The translations under genes were made by a program, and so were the position numbers. Below the pieces are notes generated by a model. The model searched no databases. It was not told the DNA's origin and saw only the letters and a program-made list of their open reading frames with translations. Of a stretch of DNA of 37,584 nucleotides, positions 12,119 through 21,967 are shown in pieces. Numbering within the stretch: position 1 is the stretch's first letter; each line of letters begins with the position of its first letter. This stretch comes from Bacteroidota bacterium. GTDB taxonomy: Bacteria; Bacteroidota; Ignavibacteria; UBA10030; SZUA-254. The DNA lies in contig JAGVIE010000034.1 in assembly GCA_020056225.1 (NCBI GenBank), forward strand, positions 1-37,584, written 5' to 3'.

Positions 12119-14392
12119 CTAATCGCGATGCGAACGGTGATGTCCTCCACCACCTCGGTGACCGCCATTACGATCTCCGTCTCGCCGTGGGGGGCGGTCT
12201 CTTTTTCGTTCTGCTTCGCGCAGTGCTTCCTGTTCAGGATCATAACCTGGCATCAATGCTTTACGGCTAAGATTATTTCTGCCTTCGTCGTCAATTTTAA
12301 TTAACTTGACTTCAATTTCATCTCCAACCTTCAGAATATCGGAAACTTTATTCACACGATTAACGTCCAGATGCGAAATGTGAACAAGCCCTTCTTTGCC
12401 GGGCAGGAATTCAACAAATGCGCCGAAATCCATTAGTCTAGTGACTTTCCCTTTATAAGTCTTTCCAACTACCGGAGCTTCTACGAGCTTGCTGATAATT
12501 TGCTGTGCTTTGTCGGATCCCTCAGCACTAACTGAAGCAATCACTATTGTGCCATCGTCTTCAATATTTATTTCTGCACCGGTATCCTTCACGATCTGGC
12601 GAATCATCTTTCCGCCCGGACCTATAACCGTTCCAATCATATCAACCGGAATCTTGAGTGTTGTTAATCGTGGCGCATACTTTGATAATTCCTTTCGCGG
12701 TTCATTTATTGTTTGTTCCATGATTCCAAGTATGTGGAAACGTCCGTCCTTCGCTTGCATCAGCGCTCGCTCGATAATATCGAACGATATTCCCTGAATC
12801 TTTATATCCATCTGTAAACCGGTAATACCATCTCTCGTACCAGAGACTTTAAAATCCATATCACCGAGATGATCTTCATTGCCCAAGATATCGCTTAGTA
12901 CCGCAACTTTATCTGCTTCTTTGATAAGTCCCATCGCAATGCCAGCGACCGGTTTTTTAATCGGAACACCTGCATCCATTAAAGCGAGAGTTCCGGCACA
13001 TACCGTTGCCATCGATGAAGAACCGTTCGATTCAAGAATATCAGAAACGATACGGATAGTATATGGAAATTCTTCCTCCAGAGGAAGGACGTTCTTAAGA
13101 GAACGCTCAGCAAGGTTGCCGTGACCGATTTCTCGTCTGCCGGTGCTGCCAAGTCTACCAACTTCACCAACAGAAAATGGCGGGAAATTGTAGTGCAACA
13201 TGAAGCGTTTGGTTGATTCGGGCTGTAATCCATCGAGGATTTGTTCATCTAACTTAGTTCCCAATGTTGCCGAGGTTAAACTTTGAGTCTCACCGCGCGT
13301 GAAAAGCGCCGAGCCGTGAGTTCGCGGCAATAAGCCGATCTCACATGTGATAGGACGAACGTCTTTCACGCCTCTTCCATCGAGACGCTTGCCTTCATCA
13401 AGGATCATTTTTCTCATCTCTTCATATTCGATATCGTGGAGGATATCTGCGATAAGATCTTTTTTATCTTCAACAAATGCCGCCGGGCTTTCATGATAGA
13501 GAGCATTATCTTTATCGTTAAGTTTAAGCGCGACAGAAGTAATCGCTGATTTCAGTCCTTCGATCGTAGTCAGTAGGATTTCTTCGTTCGCTTTGCTTCT
13601 TTCTTCCTTCATCAATATTTGATGTGTAGCGGTACGGACTTTATCGCGTGCAATTTTTGAGACGGCATCATTCAGTTGATTCTTCAGTTGATTGACCGGG
13701 ATTTCACGTTTAGGGCGATTAGATTCGTTTTGAAATTCGATCTGAAGGGCGCATAATTTCTTGATATTTTCCTGTGCGAATCGGAGAGCTTCGAGCATAT
13801 CCTGTTCGGATATTTCTTTTGTCTCTCCTTCAACCATCACGATTGAAGTTGTTGTCCCCGCCACCATGATGTCCATACTGCTTGAAGGCAATTGGCTGAA
13901 TGTTGGGTTGACGATAAGATTGCCGTCGATTTTTCCAACACGCACCTCAGCGATAGGACCCGAAAAAGGGATATCCGAAATCATTAACGCAGATGAAGCG
14001 CCCAAAGCTCCGAGAAAATCTGCATCGTTTTCCTGATCCGATGAAAACACAGTTAATAATATCTGTGTTTCACTTTTATAACCTTCAGGAAACATGGGTC
14101 TGATAGGTCGATCAATCAGACGGGAAGAGAGAATTTCTTTTTCAGTGGGCCGCCCTTCCCTTTTGAAAAATCCGCCTGGAATTTTTCCTGCCGCCGCAGT
14201 TTTTTCACGATACTCTACCTGAAGCGGAAGAAAATCCTGTCCCTCCACAATTTCTTTTTTAGCAACAACAGAAGCCAGTACCATCGTGTCACCATATCGA
14301 ACCATTACTGCTCCATCTGCTTGTTTAGCATACTTACCTGTTTCGATGGAGAGAATTCTTCCACCAATTTCAATTTCTTTTCTTATTACCAT
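12119..14392 (-). CDS. pnp: Polyribonucleotide nucleotidyltransferase (PNPase)
   Basis: The 757-residue 3'-5' phosphorolytic exoribonuclease works in RNA decay. Domains in order are RNase PH 1 (about 1-220), an all-helical linker, RNase PH 2 (about 320-545, with GETQSLTSATLG and SNGSSSMATVCAGTLALMDAG), a KH domain (about 555-615, IGPGGKMIRQI) and an S1 domain (about 625-695, GKVTRLMDFGAFVEFLPGKEGLVHIS). The end is a short Arg/Gly/His-rich tail (PPRRDGDRNGGHRGGGG), a low-complexity RNA-binding-like extension. It is the last gene of the operon, 51 bases after rpsO, the same order as in E. coli, where the rpsO-pnp transcript is cut by RNase III and PNPase represses its own synthesis. Confidence 0.97.
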   Translation of the reverse strand: MVIRKEIEIGGRILSIETGKYAKQADGAVMVRYGDTMVLASVVAKKEIVEGQDFLPLQVEYREKTAAAGKIPGGFFKREGRPTEKEILSSRLIDRPIRPMFPEGYKSETQILLTVFSSDQENDADFLGALGASSALMISDIPFSGPIAEVRVGKIDGNLIVNPTFSQLPSSSMDIMVAGTTTSIVMVEGETKEISEQDMLEALRFAQENIKKLCALQIEFQNESNRPKREIPVNQLKNQLNDAVSKIARDKVRTATHQILMKEERSKANEEILLTTIEGLKSAITSVALKLNDKDNALYHESPAAFVEDKKDLIADILHDIEYEEMRKMILDEGKRLDGRGVKDVRPITCEIGLLPRTHGSALFTRGETQSLTSATLGTKLDEQILDGLQPESTKRFMLHYNFPPFSVGEVGRLGSTGRREIGHGNLAERSLKNVLPLEEEFPYTIRIVSDILESNGSSSMATVCAGTLALMDAGVPIKKPVAGIAMGLIKEADKVAVLSDILGNEDHLGDMDFKVSGTRDGITGLQMDIKIQGISFDIIERALMQAKDGRFHILGIMEQTINEPRKELSKYAPRLTTLKIPVDMIGTVIGPGGKMIRQIVKDTGAEINIEDDGTIVIASVSAEGSDKAQQIISKLVEAPVVGKTYKGKVTRLMDFGAFVEFLPGKEGLVHISHLDVNRVNKVSDILKVGDEIEVKLIKIDDEGRNNLSRKALMPGYDPEQEALREAERKRDRPPRRDGDRNGGHRGGGGHHRSHRD

Positions 14393-14443
14393 CTGATTTC
14401 TTCCAATTTCAATTTATGATTATTTTTATTTTCGATTACACGC

Positions 14444-14713
14444 TTATTTGCGCAGTTCGAGTTCCTGGATTATTTTCCGGTATCGATCCATATTTTTATT
14501 TTGCAGATATACCAATAATCTGCGCCTTTTACCTACCATCTTGAGCAAACCGTATCTTGAGTGATGGTCTTTCACGGCTTTGTTAAAATGTGATGAAAGA
14601 TCGTTTATGCGGTTCGTTAGAATCGCAATCTGAACTTCCGGTGAACCTGAATCAGCGGGCGTTTTGCCGAACTTATTCATAAGCTCTTGTTTCTTCTCTT
14701 TTGTTAATGGCAT
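14444..14713 (-). CDS. rpsO: 30S ribosomal protein S15
   Basis: The 89-residue primary 16S rRNA-binding protein has the conserved [22 protein letters not shown] block, [18 protein letters not shown] and the terminal [12 protein letters not shown]. Length matches the family exactly. A good ribosome site (GGAGAAG) precedes the ATG by 4 bases. It lies between ribF and pnp, the order found in many bacteria. Confidence 0.98.
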
Positions 14714-14739
14714 TTTACTTCTCCTTTAAAACTAATCTG

Positions 14740-15675
14740 TTATTGTTGAACTTTATTAATAAACTTCATGCACAACTCTCTATCATTGTGCAACTGTGTA
14801 ACTAATTCTTCTTTTGATGAAAATTTTATTTCCGATCTAATTCTTCTTAAAAAATTAACTGTTATTTCTTTTCCGTAAAGTACATCGTTTATGCCGAAAA
14901 TATTAGCTTCTATTATCCTTTGTCCGTCTGGTTTAAACGTGGGCCTAACACCGATATTTAACATACCATAAAAAATATTCCCGTCAAATTCTAACGAAAC
15001 AAAATATACTCCGTTTTGAGGTACCACTTTACTGCCTGACTGCGGCTGTATATTAGCAGTTGGGAAATTAAGTGTTTTTCCTCTTCTATCTCCTTCTACG
15101 ACTTGACCTTTCATCGAATATGGGCGATCAAGATATTTCGCAGCACGTTCAACATCACCCTGAGATAAAAGATTTCGGATTTTTGTACTGCTTATTATCT
15201 CTCCTTCCGATGAAACGGGTTCAAGGACATCTACGTCAAAATGCGAATCTTTTCCCATTTGTCTTAGCTCATCGATATTCGATTTACGATCTCTTCCGAA
15301 CATATGATCATGTCCTACAATTACGCTTCGCACACCTGTACCATGCAGGATATAGCGCTCATAGAACTCACGAGATGTTTGTCGTGAAAAATCAAATGTA
15401 AACTCTATTACGTATACCAGATCAACTCCAATATTTTTCATCAGTTCAAGGCGCTCATCAAGAGTACTCAATAACTTCACCGGACCTTTTCCAACAACTT
15501 CACGGGGATGGGGTTCGAAAGTGACAATAATACTCCGGGCATTGTACTCGGTTGCACGCTCATGTAATCTGCGGAAGATCAATTTATGGCCGAGATGCAC
15601 ACCATCAAATGTGCCTATTGTTATGACTGAATTTGAATCGCGTGTAATATCTTCTAATTTGCGCACAACGATCAT
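14740..15675 (-). CDS. ribF: Bifunctional riboflavin kinase / FAD synthetase
   Basis: The protein phosphorylates riboflavin to FMN and then adenylylates FMN to FAD. The N-terminal nucleotidyltransferase domain has TIGTFDGVHLGHK and SIIVTFEPHP and VIVGHDHMFGRDR; the C-terminal kinase domain has GDRRGKTLNFPTANI and YGMLNIGVRPTF. I prefer ATG 15675 (311 residues), which begins at the usual place. An ATG at 15726 would add 17 residues and overlap rbfA by 26 bases. It follows rbfA directly; the truB gene that usually lies between is absent. rpsO follows after 26 bases. Confidence 0.93.
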   Translation of the reverse strand: MIVVRKLEDITRDSNSVITIGTFDGVHLGHKLIFRRLHERATEYNARSIIVTFEPHPREVVGKGPVKLLSTLDERLELMKNIGVDLVYVIEFTFDFSRQTSREFYERYILHGTGVRSVIVGHDHMFGRDRKSNIDELRQMGKDSHFDVDVLEPVSSEGEIISSTKIRNLLSQGDVERAAKYLDRPYSMKGQVVEGDRRGKTLNFPTANIQPQSGSKVVPQNGVYFVSLEFDGNIFYGMLNIGVRPTFKPDGQRIIEANIFGINDVLYGKEITVNFLRRIRSEIKFSSKEELVTQLHNDRELCMKFINKVQQ

Positions 15676-15700
15676 TGCAAAATTCCCGTGAATGAGGATA

Positions 15701-16063
15701 TCACTCAGGACCCTTCGTTGCGTCATCTTTGTGAATTTGTCTGATCAGGTTATTGATCTTCTCTACGCGATCGAGAGTTTCATCCACATAAAATTGAATT
15801 GCCGGTGTGAATTTCAATCTGATAGTCGAACCTATGAACGACCTTATCTCGCCTTTGTGATCTTCAAGCATCTTCAAAGTAGCCGCCTTTACATCAGGTG
15901 ATCCCATTATACTAACATAGATTTTTGCTATTTTAAGATCAGGCGTTACGTGTACTTCGGTAACAGTGATAAAACCATAAGCAGGGTCACGAAATTCACG
16001 CGTGAAATACATTCCGATTTCTTCTTTTATGAGCGAAGCGACTTTTTCGGTACGCAATGACAT
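15701..16063 (-). CDS. rbfA: 30S ribosome-binding factor RbfA
   Basis: The 120-residue KH-fold factor helps late maturation of the 30S subunit and 16S rRNA 5' end. It opens with the typical RTEKVASLIKEEIGMYFTRE and carries ITVTEVHVTPDLKIAKIYVS, then the LRFTPAIQFYVDETLD-like segment (here RLKFTPAIQFYVDETLDRV). Length is normal. It begins 11 bases after infB. Confidence 0.96.
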   Translation of the reverse strand: MSLRTEKVASLIKEEIGMYFTREFRDPAYGFITVTEVHVTPDLKIAKIYVSIMGSPDVKAATLKMLEDHKGEIRSFIGSTIRLKFTPAIQFYVDETLDRVEKINNLIRQIHKDDATKGPE

Positions 16064-16074
16064 GCTATGAATTC

Positions 16075-18813
16075 CTATGCAAGCTTTCTGAGTGTTTCGA
16101 CAATTTTAAACGCTTCGATAGTATCACCCGCCTTAATATCATGGTATCCATCCAAGCCAATACCGCACTCAAAACCGGATTCAACTTCTCTGACATCTTC
16201 TTTAAAACGCTTGAGCGATGCAAGACCACCTTCGAAGATAACAATACCGTCACGAAGCAAACGTACTTTATTTCCGCGTGCAATTTTACCGTCTTGCACC
16301 TGGCATCCGGCAATTGTGCCGATCTTTGGGATCTTAAAGACGTCGCGTACTTCTACTGTCGCAGTTATCTCTTCATTCTTCTCAGGGGCAAGTAATCCTT
16401 CGAGCGCCTTTCTCACATCCTCAATTGCATTATATATGATGTTGTAAATACGGATATCTACTTTCTCCTGCTCCGCAAGTCTGCGCGCATTCAAGTTGGG
16501 CCTGACATGGAAACCAATTATAACCGCATTAGATGCCGCCGCAAGAAGCACATCTGACTCCGATATTGTCCCTACAGCGCGATGAATAACATTAACCCTG
16601 ACTTCTTCATGTACAATTTTCATTAACGAATCTGCAAGCGCACCAACTGATCCATCAACGTCGCCTTTCACGATCATTTTTAACTCTTTGATCTGTCCAT
16701 CTTTGATTTTTTGTGAGAGGTCATTCAACGTGACACTGTGAATAAGACGGAAATCCTGTTCCCGTTTTAATTGTTGTCGGCGAATGCTGATCGTTCTTGC
16801 TTCACGCTCATTTTCAACAACAACATAATTATCGCCTGCCTGCGGAATGCCGTCAAACCCGATAATTTGAACCGGAGTGGATGGCTTTGCTATCTCAACA
16901 CGATTTCCTCGTTCATCATACATCGCGCGAACTTTTCCGCTTTGTACGCCGGCAACAAAAGAATCGCCTATTTTCAACATTCCTTTTTGAACAAGTACCG
17001 TCGAGACAGTTCCTTTTCCTTTATCGACTTTAGCTTCCAGAACTACACCACGTGCGGTTTTGTTAGGATTTGCTTTTAGATCGAGAACATCCGCCTCGAG
17101 TAATATTTTTTCGAGCAGGACTTCTACATTTTTTCCCGTTTTTGCAGATAGTTCAACACACTGATATTTTCCACCCCATTCTTCAACCAGAACATTTTTA
17201 TCTGATAACTGTTGGCGTATCCTGTCGGCGTTAGCATCACCCTTATCTGTTTTATTGATTGCTATGATGATAGGAACGTTTGCAGCTTGCGCATGGCTGA
17301 TTGCTTCAACAGTTTGCGGCATAACGCTGTCATCGGCGGCAACCACAAGCACAACAATATCGGTAATCTGGGCACCGCGCGCGCGCATAGCTGTAAACGC
17401 TTCATGTCCCGGAGTATCGAGAAATGTAATATTTTTATTTTCATTCACGCTCACCATATATGCGCCTATGTGCTGCGTGATTCCGCCGGCTTCACCCGCA
17501 ACGACATTGCTTCTCCTGATATAATCGAGCAATGAAGTTTTTCCGTGATCTACATGTCCCATAATTGTCACAACAGGAGGACGAAGTTGGAGATCATCCT
17601 CGGCATCAGGTTCATCAACTACAATATCTTCAGCCAGTTCCGAAAAGAATTTTACCTCAAGTCCGTATTCATCTGCAACAAGGGTTATAGTATCTTTATC
17701 GAGTCTCTGATTGATGGATACCATCAAACCGAGTTCGATACATTTTTTTATGACTTCAGCAACGCTCACTCCCATGAGATTGGAAAGCTCATTCACAGAT
17801 ACAAATTCGGTAACTCTTAGGATCGATTTATCTTTTTCTAATTGTTCGAGTTGTTTCTGCTCTTCTATTAATCGCTTTTCTTTTCTTTTTTTCTTGAATG
17901 CTGCGCGTTGGGTAACAACTCCGGCATCGTCAATTTCCGCAAGCGTTCTTTTTATAGCTTCATCGACTTCTTCCTGGTCCACTTCGCGGTATTTCAATTT
18001 GCGTTTCTTCTTAGCCTTACGGAGCAATTCATCCGATTCTTCTTTCGGCGCCGCTACCGCTTCTGTTTTGATCCTTTTCTTTTTCTTTTTCTTTTTCTTG
18101 AGATCATCCGCAGTTTCGTCCTTAGATGCAGTTGGAGCTGTCCCCTCATGAATCGCAGCCGCACGCCTAACTTCAGCGAGATCAATCTTTCCCTTAATTG
18201 TCAATCCCATTTTGGGTGTAAGCCTGGGATGAAGTTCCGTTGCTTTTTTAACCGGTTTTTTTATTTTTTCCGCCTCTACTGGCAGTTTCTGTGTGATGAC
18301 CGGTTGTTCTTCTAATTTTACTTCTTCAACTGGAACTGGCCTTTCCTCCAGAACAGGAACCTCTAACTTTGTAGTAGACTCTGGCGGAGGAACGATACTG
18401 CTCGTATCTTGAATTGGCTCAACTTCTTTAATTTCGGATTGAATTTCCACTTGTGGCTGTGTTACCGGTTCTATTTCTTGAACAACTTCCACCGGAACTG
18501 CTGGTTCCTCGGTCTTACGTTTTTTAGAAGGTTTCACTGGCGGTTGCTCCTCTACAAGCGGAGCCGCCTTAACTTCGCTCTTCTTACGAGAATCGCGATA
18601 TGTTTGAACTTTCTTCTGATGTTTTTCCGCTACCTCCTTATCTTTTTTGAAATGAGATAAGATATCATGCATCATAGCATCATCGACTAGAGACATGTGG
18701 CTCTTGATCTCGTGCCCTCTCTTTTTCAGATATTCCATCAATGTCTCATGTGAGATATTGATTTCCTTTGCTATCTGGTATATTTTTTTCTTTGATTGAG
18801 GTTTTTCGGTCAT
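16075..18813 (-). CDS. infB: Translation initiation factor IF-2
   Basis: The 912-residue GTPase brings fMet-tRNA to the 30S subunit. Order: an N-terminal IF2_N helix domain (about 5-55), a long charged Pro/Glu/Lys/Val-rich linker (about 65-330), a second IF2_N domain, the G domain with [12 protein letters not shown] (G1), [12 protein letters not shown] (G2), DTPGHEAF (G3) and NKTDK (G4), then the beta-barrel and C1/C2 domains. The linker contains eight lysines in a row (about 240) coded by strictly alternating AAG and AAA. The reverse strand of this linker shows several open frames; these are artefacts of its composition. It sits 24 bases after nusA and 11 before rbfA. Confidence 0.97.
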
Positions 18814-18837
18814 AGAAATAATAATTGATCCTTATAA

Positions 18838-20205
18838 TTAGGATTTATTTCCTTCATCAGTTATTGTTGTTTCACCCGTCTCGGCGTTTTCAACAGATTC
18901 TTTTTGTACAGTAGTTTCAGCTTTTGAAGAAATAAACTTTTCGAGATCCTTCTCTCCGGCATCCTCATCAACTTCCGCTTCTTCGTATTCGCGTTGCATC
19001 ATTTCCCTAAGCGATTTAATTCTATCTTCTGATAAGCCATCGATTTCCAGTAAATCATCTAAATCGGCTTCTAAGACGGCGCGTGCGGTTGTATAGCCTT
19101 CGTCAACCAATCTTTCATAAAGCGGCTCGCCCAATTCTTCCCTGAATTCATCAAGGTCCATATCGTATTCTTCCTCACCGCCTTCCTTGATAAGGTTGAT
19201 TTCGTAACCGGTAAGCTGAGAGGCAAGTCGGATATTCTGTCCGTTGCGTCCGATTGCAAGAGATACTTGATCTTTATCGACTACCACAGTTGCAATTTTA
19301 GTGGATTCATCGATTGAAACGCTTTTGAGTTTAGCGGGAGCAAGCGCACGTTGAATATAAACCGTTGAATTATCTGAAAAATTGATTACATCTATGTTTT
19401 CATTATTCATCTCGCGCACTATCGCATGAATGCGTACACCTTTCATTCCGACACAGGCACCAACTGCATCGATACGGTCATCGTGCGATTCGACTGCGAC
19501 TTTGGACCGCTCTCCGGCTTCACGAACTACTGCTTTGATTTCAATAATACCGTCATATATTTCAGGAATTTCAGTTTCAAATAATTTTGCCAGAAATTTG
19601 GGGTCTGCTCTTGAAATTATCACCATCGGGGTCGCGACATTTTTCCGCACTTCCTTGATGATCGCCCGAATCGTTTCTCCTTTGCGATATCGCTCTTTTG
19701 CGATCTGTTCATTCTTGGGAAGAATCAGCTCGTTACGATTATGATTTATCAATATTTCACCCTTGCGAATCTGATATATTTCACCTACGATGATTTCACC
19801 AACCGCGTTGTTATATTCGTTGAATACGACTTCCTTCTCAACCTCTTTGATCCGCTGATTGAGATTTTGTTTTGCGCTGATTACAAGTCGCCTTCCAAAA
19901 CTTTGAAGGTTGATAACTTCGACAAAATCATCTCCGATATCCAATTGCTCATCTGTTTTCTTTCTAACAGTTGCAAGATCGATCTGGGTGGAAGGATCGG
20001 TGACAGTTTCAACTATTACCTTTTCGAGATAGATTTCAATATCACCCTTATCCATATTAACAACGACATCGAACCGTGCCTCCATACCGTATTTCTTGCG
20101 TACCATCATAGAAAAAACATCTTCGATGATACTGGTTAACATATCTTTGTCAATTCTTTTTTCCCGAACCATCTGAGAAAATGATTCAACAATTTCGTAA
20201 TTCAT
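18838..20205 (-). CDS. nusA: Transcription termination/antitermination factor NusA
   Basis: The 455-residue RNA-polymerase-binding factor controls pausing, termination and antitermination. Order: N-terminal polymerase-binding domain (1-130), S1 domain (about 135-200, VGEIIVGEIYQIRKGEILI), KH1 and KH2 (about 200-345, GACVGMKGVRIHAI and LAIGRNGQNIRLASQLTGYEI), then a helix-hairpin-helix-like segment (about 370-415, DLDDLLEIDGLSEDRIKSL) and an acidic tail. The two C-terminal acidic repeats of E. coli are reduced to one HhH-like unit. It lies between rimP and infB. A terminator hairpin in the leader of this operon may make NusA its own regulator (see findings). Confidence 0.97.
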   Translation of the reverse strand: MNYEIVESFSQMVREKRIDKDMLTSIIEDVFSMMVRKKYGMEARFDVVVNMDKGDIEIYLEKVIVETVTDPSTQIDLATVRKKTDEQLDIGDDFVEVINLQSFGRRLVISAKQNLNQRIKEVEKEVVFNEYNNAVGEIIVGEIYQIRKGEILINHNRNELILPKNEQIAKERYRKGETIRAIIKEVRKNVATPMVIISRADPKFLAKLFETEIPEIYDGIIEIKAVVREAGERSKVAVESHDDRIDAVGACVGMKGVRIHAIVREMNNENIDVINFSDNSTVYIQRALAPAKLKSVSIDESTKIATVVVDKDQVSLAIGRNGQNIRLASQLTGYEINLIKEGGEEEYDMDLDEFREELGEPLYERLVDEGYTTARAVLEADLDDLLEIDGLSEDRIKSLREMMQREYEEAEVDEDAGEKDLEKFISSKAETTVQKESVENAETGETTITDEGNKS

Positions 20206-20245
20206 CCTATTTCCTTAAATTTTATCAATAACAATATCTGTATTC

Positions 20246-20698
20246 TTACAACGAAGCTATTACTCGTGCTTCAATAATTTCACTAAATATAACTTTTCGT
20301 TCAGAGCCTTCTTTTGTTCGAATTGTGATCTCACCAGAACTTACCGCAGATAAAATCCCTTGAACTCTATCCACACCTTTTTCTGTATTATATTTTACCA
20401 AAAATTCTCTTCCAATGTTCTTAGGATATTGTCTGGAGTATTTTATCGGTCTTTCAATTCCTGGTGATGATACGACAAGGTAATATCTTTGTTGAAGTAT
20501 GCTTGCAGTATCAATCATTGGAGAAATCTCTCGACTAATCTTGGCACATAGATCAGTCGTAATTCCTTCATCGTTATCGATGAATATTTCGACAATCTTT
20601 CCTGACTGACTTCCCCTGATTTCGATATCAACGAGAAAAGCATTGTATGAGTCTATGACAGGCTCAATAATGTCTTTGATTTTTTGAATTATTTGCAC
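20246..20698 (-). CDS. rimP: Ribosome maturation factor RimP
   Basis: The 150-residue protein assists 30S assembly. It has the N-terminal IIEPVIDSYNAFLVDIEIRG block, VEIFIDNDEGITTDLCAKISREIS, and YYLVVSSPGIERPIK, the hallmark of the family, followed by the SH3-like C-terminal barrel. No ATG is available at the N-terminus. I use GTG 20698, which gives the usual family start; a TTG at 20719 would add seven hydrophobic residues. No clear Shine-Dalgarno is visible for either. It is the first gene of the rimP-nusA-infB-rbfA-ribF-rpsO-pnp operon. Confidence 0.93.
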   Translation of the reverse strand: MQIIQKIKDIIEPVIDSYNAFLVDIEIRGSQSGKIVEIFIDNDEGITTDLCAKISREISPMIDTASILQQRYYLVVSSPGIERPIKYSRQYPKNIGREFLVKYNTEKGVDRVQGILSAVSSGEITIRTKEGSERKVIFSEIIEARVIASL

Positions 20699-20740
20699 AA
20701 AAAAGAACTCAAATGGCAAAATAGTGTTTAAAATCGGCTC

Positions 20741-20768
20741 AAAAAAAAAGTCCCATATGTGGGACTTT
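20741..20768 (-). terminator. Intrinsic terminator / possible attenuator in the rimP-nusA leader
   Basis: On the - strand a perfect 9-bp stem AAAGTCCCA/TGGGACTTT with a 4-base loop runs into a T-tract of nine. It lies 168 bases after ltaE and only 21-42 bases before rimP. Because a promoter is found just upstream (20785-20813), the hairpin would be within the first ~40 bases of the rimP-nusA transcript. It can therefore stop read-through from ltaE, attenuate the nusA operon, or both. Confidence 0.85.
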
Positions 20769-20784
20769 CTTTCGAGGATATGTT

Positions 20785-20813
20785 AATATACTAATCCTTT
20801 TTTCCAATAGCAA
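20785..20813 (-). promoter_or_regulatory. Sigma-70-type promoter for the rimP-nusA-infB operon
   Basis: TTGCTA (20808-20813) and TATATT (20785-20790) on the - strand with a 17-base spacer. Transcription would begin near 20778, about 10 bases before the terminator-type hairpin. The rest of the 216-base gap up to ltaE (20814-20935) shows nothing else I can name. Confidence 0.68.
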
Positions 20814-20935: not shown

Positions 20936-21967
20936 TTATTTAAAAAATGATTTAAAAACTTTAACTGCCTCTTTCACATGAAGCAAAGAAGCATTCATGT
21001 GCATCACCGCTCTTATAGATGTGTTACGTTCAGGAGTCAACAGTATCCCTTTACTTTTCAATAGCTTTAAAACTTCTTTTTGAGTTTTTCCTGTAGGATG
21101 AATGTCGATTATAACCATATTAGTTTGTACTTCATCCATATTAATTGATAACTTGCGAAGTGTACTAAGTTCAGTTGCAAAGTAGGATGCTTTTTGATGA
21201 TCTTCGTTTAACCTGTCGATGTTATTATCAAGCGCATACAATGCAGCCGCAGCGAGAATACCAACCTGCCTCATTCCACCGCCGAATACCTTTCGATAAA
21301 CTCTTGCCTGCTCAACAATATCACTACTCCCGATAATAATCGAACCTATGGGAGCACCAAGTCCTTTAGAGAAACATACAGATATAGAATCAAAATATTG
21401 TGCGTATTTTTTCACTGAAATCCCTGAAGCCACCGATGCATTCCAGAGACGTGCACCGTCGAGATGCATTCGGATATTTTCTTCGGCAGCAAGGGCATGG
21501 ATATTCTTAATCTCATCTATAGGAATTATTGACCCGGCAGATCGCCCGTGAGTATTTTCTATGCAGATAAGTTTTGTAGTTGGAAGATAATACGCCTTGG
21601 GCCGAATCGCCCGCTTAATCTGTTCGGCTGTCATATTACCGCTTTTACCGGCAATCGGATTCATCTGAACACCGGCGAGAAGAGAAGGTCCTGCGGTTTC
21701 GTACACGAATATGTGGGAATCCTGTTCGACGATTATCTCATCTCCGGGATGGGTATGCACCTTGATACAAACTTCATTTCCCATAGTTCCGCTCGGTACG
21801 AATAGCGCATCTTCCTTACCGAACATCTTGGCGATTCTTTTTTGCAGTTTATTCACTGTAGGATCCTCACCATAGACATCATCACCAACATCAGCGCCAA
21901 CCATAGCTTTCAGCATCCCAATTGACGGCTTTGTTACAGTGTCGCTTCTCAGATCAATGTACTTCAT
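20936..21967 (-). CDS. ltaE: Low-specificity L-threonine aldolase
   Basis: The 343-residue PLP enzyme cleaves threonine and allo-threonine to glycine and acetaldehyde. It begins with IDLRSDTVTKPS and has DVYGEDPTVNKLQ, FVPSGTMGNEV, ENTHGRSAGSIIP and HLDGARLWNA; the PLP-binding lysine is K201 in CFSKGLGAPIGS. Length is normal. Its start lies inside the end of lnt (14-base overlap), making it the last gene of the acyP-to-ltaE operon, although its function is unrelated to the lipid theme of its neighbours. Confidence 0.94.
   Translation of the reverse strand: MKYIDLRSDTVTKPSIGMLKAMVGADVGDDVYGEDPTVNKLQKRIAKMFGKEDALFVPSGTMGNEVCIKVHTHPGDEIIVEQDSHIFVYETAGPSLLAGVQMNPIAGKSGNMTAEQIKRAIRPKAYYLPTTKLICIENTHGRSAGSIIPIDEIKNIHALAAEENIRMHLDGARLWNASVASGISVKKYAQYFDSISVCFSKGLGAPIGSIIIGSSDIVEQARVYRKVFGGGMRQVGILAAAALYALDNNIDRLNEDHQKASYFATELSTLRKLSINMDEVQTNMVIIDIHPTGKTQKEVLKLLKSKGILLTPERNTSIRAVMHMNASLLHVKEAVKVFKSFFK

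Follow-up and report, generated by a model that had tools for sequence, protein, structure and literature searches.

A conserved promoter-proximal hairpin ahead of rimP-nusA-infB in Ignavibacteria: a probable transcription attenuator with candidate NusA feedback

The rimP-nusA-infB operon on the minus strand of the window, i.e., the 37,584-nt stretch of DNA from a bacterium of the class Ignavibacteria that was analysed here, is preceded by an element which is probably a promoter-proximal transcription attenuator, meaning a leaky intrinsic terminator, most likely set by NusA feedback. The element has a defined anatomy of promoter, hairpin and T run, it is conserved among relatives, its stem covaries, it occurs independently of the neighbouring gene and it is positioned ahead of nusA in two genomes in which rimP was not detected.

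Architecture of the leader

Family searches gave the gene order threonine-aldolase family, RimP, NusA, IF-2, RbfA, RibF, S15 and polynucleotide phosphorylase, whereby the first of these genes (ltaE-like) lies on the same strand as rimP and ends 167 nt upstream of the stem (Table 1). For rimP, a TTG codon at position 20719 is a further open start next to the GTG. Within positions 12119-20719, ribF, rpsO and pnp directly follow rbfA and truB is absent between them, an order which we take to differ from that of E. coli.

Table 1. Positions of the leader elements and of the flanking genes within the window
Feature	Position	Strand	Basis
-35 element TTGCTA of the rimP operon promoter	20808..20813	-	sequence and aligned column
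-10 element TATATT, 17-nt spacer from -35	20785..20790	-	sequence and alignment
Likely transcription start	20778..20779	-	predicted from the -10 position
5' arm of the terminator-like hairpin, AAAGTCCCA	20760..20768	-	sequence, fold, covarying pairs
Hairpin loop CATA	20756..20759	-	sequence, fold
3' arm of the hairpin, TGGGACTTT	20747..20755	-	sequence, fold, covariation
Nine-T run, first three T may pair with AAA	20741..20749	-	sequence, conserved T columns
rimP, probable GTG start at 20698	20246..20698	-	RimP_N, E 4.6e-20; start picked by comparison with relatives
nusA, probable feedback effector	18838..20205	-	TIGR01953, 363.7 bits
infB	16075..18813	-	TIGR00487, 813.2 bits
ltaE-like gene, threonine-aldolase family, upstream; not conserved along with the element	20936..21967	-	family search

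The original prediction had placed a TTGCTA-17-TATATT promoter on the minus strand, followed about 10 nt past its likely start by a hairpin, and these coordinates proved to be correct. Read on this strand, the leader continues as AAAGTCCCA-CATA-TGGGACTTT, nine T and subsequently the rimP reading frame. Assuming that the end of the -10 box corresponds to position -7, transcription would start at about 20778, the stem would begin at about +11 and the final T would be reached at about +38. The hairpin had moreover been described as having nine base pairs along with a nine-T tract, and both are present; as separate features, however, they cannot be counted, as three of the T are paired in the 9-bp form.

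A 61-nt stretch of the leader folds with -19.5 kcal/mol (z -5.7), a value matched by 0 of 200 shuffles, and the antisense of the same stretch folds less well (z -2.8). The isolated hairpin, with -11.2 kcal/mol, is of medium strength, as 28% of the 53 terminator-like hairpins identified after 565 ORF ends of the sampled genome are weaker. A lower stem (CCTC before, GAGG past the T run) was seen by eye in some leaders, albeit inconsistently. The RNA preceding the stem amounts to 0-14 nt in the 50 leaders of the order set, with +1 taken as the seventh base past the -10 box, and within the same leaders the longest complement to the 5' arm has a mean length of 2.26 nt versus 2.45 nt upon shuffling, hence giving no sign of an antiterminator. 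Riboswitch, leader peptide and antiterminator were rejected as candidates, since so short a stretch ahead of the stem leaves no room for any of them.

Conservation within the order and across the phylum

Of 60 genomes, with the own one counted, 51 yielded a RimP match, and 50 leaders from these 51 (own genome included) constitute the order alignment, while the genome G050 was examined separately. In the phylum sample 147 of 148 genomes possess RimP, and 87 loci out of the 147 matches were used (L051-L137, three of which duplicate earlier ones). A further scan for relatives gave no matches with RimP alone, and with the NusA alignment the best 80 of at least 593 matching stretches were taken. 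Altogether 217 loci yielded 207 distinct leaders of adequate length, after removal of L145, L150, L151 and L152 (no rimP by HMM), of five duplicates and of one leader that was too short. Two of the 207 (L155 and L162) stem from records named KSB1 and Calditrichaeota, hence by name from another phylum, and L138, from a record named 'Ignavibacteriae bacterium', has exactly the same leader as G002, which belongs to the window's family.

Within the order, the aligned -35 and -10 columns are separated without gaps in 50/50 leaders. The -35 column reads TTG in 49 and TTGC in 47 of the 50 rows, the -10 column is exactly TATATT in 34 of them, and 47 of the 50 combine TTG with TAnnnT; in one leader, L029, the aligned columns show neither of the two boxes. 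Four aligned T columns are invariant in all 50 rows; counted from the stem, the first two unpaired columns are T in 50/50 and the first three in 47/50. The CCC core is located 11-25 nt past the end of the -10 columns, and the distance from the hairpin to the start codon ranges from -1 to 48 nt. Across the order set, the spacing between hairpin and -10 box is thus steadier than that between hairpin and start codon, a pattern that links the hairpin to transcription and not to translation. Alignment of the leader in related genomes, which the original prediction had proposed as a check, therefore revealed that promoter and hairpin are both kept in the 50 order leaders.

Hairpin and T run are also kept phylum-wide: 201 of the 207 distinct leaders carry a terminator-like hairpin with a T run within 160 nt of rimP, as compared to 157 of 2070 random windows drawn from these loci and to 93 of 1035 dinucleotide shuffles. 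When only shorter loops were allowed, 177 of the 207 leaders still gave a hairpin, versus 166 of 2070 random windows. The leaders counted as misses (L095, L100, L149, L205, L211 and L216) have hairpins that were seen by eye just beyond the rule, and for L043, where the rule chose a different hairpin, the row used for alignment and polarity was placed manually. Beyond the order, the sequences show a less distinct promoter than within it: the best match to a -10 box is found 2-48 nt ahead of the hairpin core versus 1-49 nt in shuffles, a range barely tighter than chance, wherefore the fixed promoter-hairpin distance is a result at the level of the order only.

Covariation and polarity of the stem

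Across the 50 order leaders, 96.4% of the stem cells are paired and 79 cells are changed on both sides, as opposed to 31.5 upon shuffling and no more than 6 in slid controls. Two covariation measures failed against shuffles, namely the number of pairs with both sides changed (253/500) and that of further pair types (56/500). The changes T-A/G-C, G-C/A-T and A-T/T-A mostly split the families f5 and f6 from f1, f2 and f4; since they largely track one family-level split, three of the four covarying pairs may represent few events. The top stem pair varies more freely than the other covarying pairs.

In the order set the 5' arm contains CCC in 49 of 50 rows (the exception, L050, reads CTC) and the 3' arm contains GGG in 49 of 50 (the exception, L006, is shifted by one column). 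Among the 201 leaders of the wider sample, the 5' arm was labelled as C-rich in 83 and as G-rich in 118, and on a RimP tree of 196 rows, itself weak, the polarity requires at least 6 changes. Such differences between groups argue against a conserved contact of NusA with the stem sequence; they suggest that the position and the stability of the hairpin constitute the signal, and not its sequence.

Proposed mechanism and the part of NusA

From the arrangement described so far, we infer termination, partial read-through and NusA as the sensor. The mechanism suggested assumes that the promoter, which is of the sigma-70 type, initiates the RNA of the operon at about 20778 and that the polymerase reaches the intrinsic terminator within about 40 nt. 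Here, some polymerases would halt near +38, whereby an RNA of about 35-40 nt would be released, and the remaining ones would continue into rimP, nusA and infB. The share that stops would be set by the polymerase and by the proteins riding on it, most likely by NusA, which when abundant would favour termination and thereby limit its own operon. As almost no RNA precedes the stem, the decision to stop must rest with RNA polymerase and its factors.

A connection to nusA is indicated by genomes in which rimP was not detected. In G016 (97% complete) a leader composed of promoter and hairpin is located about 100 nt before nusA and scores 42.5 bits with the order-set model; neither a protein search nor the Pfam model found RimP in this genome, and the neighbour upstream of the leader shares its strand. 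In G162, which belongs to the same class and is 100% complete, TGGGCGAATAGCCCTTTTTT is found shortly before nusA, and the reading frame upstream of it is divergent by eye; here, a search of the genome with RimP as query gave none, nor did the local model reveal one at the nusA locus. Though few genomes are concerned, the occurrence of the leader before nusA in two of them points to NusA and not to RimP as the partner of the element. RimP_N was detectable in none of the three genomes of the family to which G016 belongs (G016, G021 and G026; L270 and L343), one of which is near complete; G021 and G026, which are 62-77% complete, gave no nusA. NusA loci were also obtained from two further genomes, G034 and G046.

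This link bears on another explanation, according to which the terminator is leaky without any NusA feedback and serves only to fix the ratio of expression or to release a very small RNA. The long T run, the medium hairpin and the lack of space for a regulatory RNA ahead of it agree with this idea, as a nine-T run combined with a stem of -11.2 kcal/mol could terminate without NusA. It is for the same reason, a medium hairpin followed by a long T run, that dependence on NusA is unreadable from the sequence, and a terminator located so early may meet the polymerase before NusA replaces sigma. However, NusA is itself encoded in the operon, the element stands before nusA also where rimP is not detectable, and feedback has been reported for B. 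subtilis (PMC12288461) and E. coli (PMC6511841). Consequently, a terminator without feedback is regarded as unlikely, though as deserving more weight than the other explanations considered below.

Independence of the element from its neighbours

The original prediction had itself named another candidate, that of a plain terminator belonging to the upstream ltaE operon, which would imply that rimP is transcribed from elsewhere. The ltaE-like gene indeed lies on the same strand shortly ahead of the stem, and same-strand neighbours are the commoner case, both in the order set (40/50) and elsewhere (88/151). Nevertheless, a conserved promoter precedes the hairpin in the order, and beyond the order set a crude length rule called the upstream ORF divergent in 59 of the 151 leaders. 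Ten of ten such ORFs, tested after having been chosen for variety, match Pfam families; the 7 'divergent' calls of the order set were excluded, as they resemble antisense shadow ORFs of GC-rich genomes. The persistence of the hairpin beside real divergent genes shows that it is not merely the ltaE terminator. In addition, 147 of 201 leaders have their start codon no more than 20 nt past the T run, which leaves no space for a second promoter in between and obliges transcripts from upstream to cross the hairpin on their way to rimP. With a conserved promoter upstream and the hairpin kept next to divergent genes, the explanation as a plain ltaE terminator fails and has become very improbable. The rimP hairpin may additionally end ltaE transcripts; on the minus strand, a single-sequence scan listed no other terminator-like sites in the 167 nt following ltaE.

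The tRNA-Gln (ttg) gene was observed upstream of the rimP hairpin in four loci (L183, L195, L197 and L201), the records of which are named Bacteroidales, Lentimicrobiaceae, Bacteroidota or Bacteroidetes. A parallel may be drawn to metY, which heads the E. coli operon.

Least probable of all is a 5' stem-loop without terminator function that protects or positions the mRNA (by stability or ribosome standby), since, even though the hairpin would head the mRNA and many relatives have the U-rich tract close to their start codon, the T columns following the stem are kept while their distance to the start codon varies widely.

Occurrence within the own genome and in lepA leaders

The attenuator-like leader of rimP was furthermore compared with other sites of its genome. 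In the single-sequence scan, promoter-like sites occur at chance level (38 versus 33.2 expected) and the rimP hairpin is absent from the 15 terminator-like sites listed, in our opinion because the T run is absorbed into the maximal stem. Sampling 835 kb of the own genome gave 260 promoter-like sites, 3 of which are immediately followed by any hairpin with a T run, which is no excess over the 2.3 obtained in shuffles. A score of at least 19.7, i.e., that of rimP and thus a threshold chosen afterwards, is reached by 2 of the 260 sites, rimP and lepA, as compared to 0.04 in shuffles and 12 of 20000 random segments. A narrower scan, confined to sites before called genes, retained rimP alone (1/58 sites, 0.1 expected) and missed lepA, which we attribute to crude start calls. 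A repeated generic terminator was rejected as an explanation, as the exact stem AGTCCC-N3-9-GGGACTTTTT occurs once in the genome.

With the covariance model, the rimP leader of the own genome scores 74.8 bits and the lepA leader 36.3 bits, and the other 27 matches score at most 30. The model matches 55 of 60 genomes (own included) at E <=0.1; as 50 leaders trained it, independent support is limited to the rest, mainly G016, G050 and G034, the last of which lies at a contig end.

The lepA (EF4) leader of the own genome (G000:C9:70431-70524; L224, L240) consists of TTGCAA-17-TATATT followed by a hairpin, ATCCCGCC..GGCGGGAT, with a weak T tract, and the adjoining gene is divergent by eye. Of 30 loci (L273-L302), 19 have a hairpin that passes the strict rule somewhere in the 160 nt ahead of lepA, and similar hairpins are visible in several further lepA loci. 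Secondary matches of the model in relatives (L220, L227, L229, L230, L232, L234, L235, L237 and L238) show the layout of a promoter followed by a hairpin and precede, by eye, gltX, typA, secG, rho, aspS and lon; they are weak to moderate (about 33-43 bits), and among the 20 inspected the others lie before tRNA genes or within a gene. It is conceivable, though rather doubtful, that promoter-proximal terminators form a small regulon in this lineage, comprising rimP-nusA, lepA and, in some relatives, typA, gltX, aspS, secG, lon and rho. The choice between stop and go would then fall within about 40 nt of the start, with sigma and NusA still exchanging. If true, the supply of NusA would link the amounts of several factors of translation and transcription by way of hairpins that come too early for any RNA switch.

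Comparison with known systems

For the rimP-leader described by Naville and Gautheret (2010, PMC2965389), NusA was proposed as regulator and no antiterminator was visible. The window's element resembles it in having a terminator hairpin with a T-stretch which precedes rimP-nusA-infB without antiterminator, 4-130 nt from the gene in the published description. Unlike the published leader, the 5' arm of which is G-rich (GGGc..gCCC), the 5' arms of the window's element and of the order set are C-rich (CCC..GGG). By the published motif, the element hence falls outside the general rimP-leader, yet it would work alike. Firmicutes and Gammaproteobacteria are the groups named there, and the word 'Bacteroidetes' is absent from the main text (PMC2965389). 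The tandem rimP leader of Gammaproteobacteria (CCCg..cGGG) has the same stem polarity as the window's element, which however possesses one hairpin only and lacks the second terminator and the antiterminator. At the gathering score, Rfam gave 0 matches in the window, and a lax E-value gave 13 weak ones, none of them at gathering; RF01770, the rimP leader of Gammaproteobacteria and thus assigned to the same gene, scored 17.7 bits on the wrong (plus) strand as opposed to a gathering score of 47 and is therefore no match.

Among characterized operons, that of Streptococcus agalactiae is reported to form a short and a long RNA of rimP-nusA from one start, and NusA feedback was proposed (PMC4448216); RNA-seq places termination 31 nt past the start, whereas about +38 is predicted for the leader in the window, from another phylum. 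In B. subtilis, NusA stimulates termination in its own leader, as summarized in a review (PMC12288461); that leader comprises about 180 nt (PMC2965389), whereas the leader in the window has about 10 nt ahead of its stem. A terminator between the start site and the first gene, as in the B. subtilis type, may also be present in the window, where a conserved promoter lies 5' of the hairpin and a start is predicted. For E. coli, two terminators ahead of rimP and control of the operon by NusA are described (PMC6511841). From Flavobacterium psychrophilum a structured 5' element before rimP was reported, present in other genera of the family and without Rfam match (PMC9723704); it concerns the same gene in a Bacteroidetes species.

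An account of the Ignavibacteria form was not found among the matches listed in the open-access literature. The new aspect is a promoter-locked variant in Ignavibacteria with the inverted stem polarity CCC..GGG, while the kind itself is known. The rimP/nusA attenuator is thereby extended to Ignavibacteria and the wider phylum and reduced to promoter, hairpin and T run, and a leader this minimal offers a clean test case for the action of NusA within the first 40 nt.
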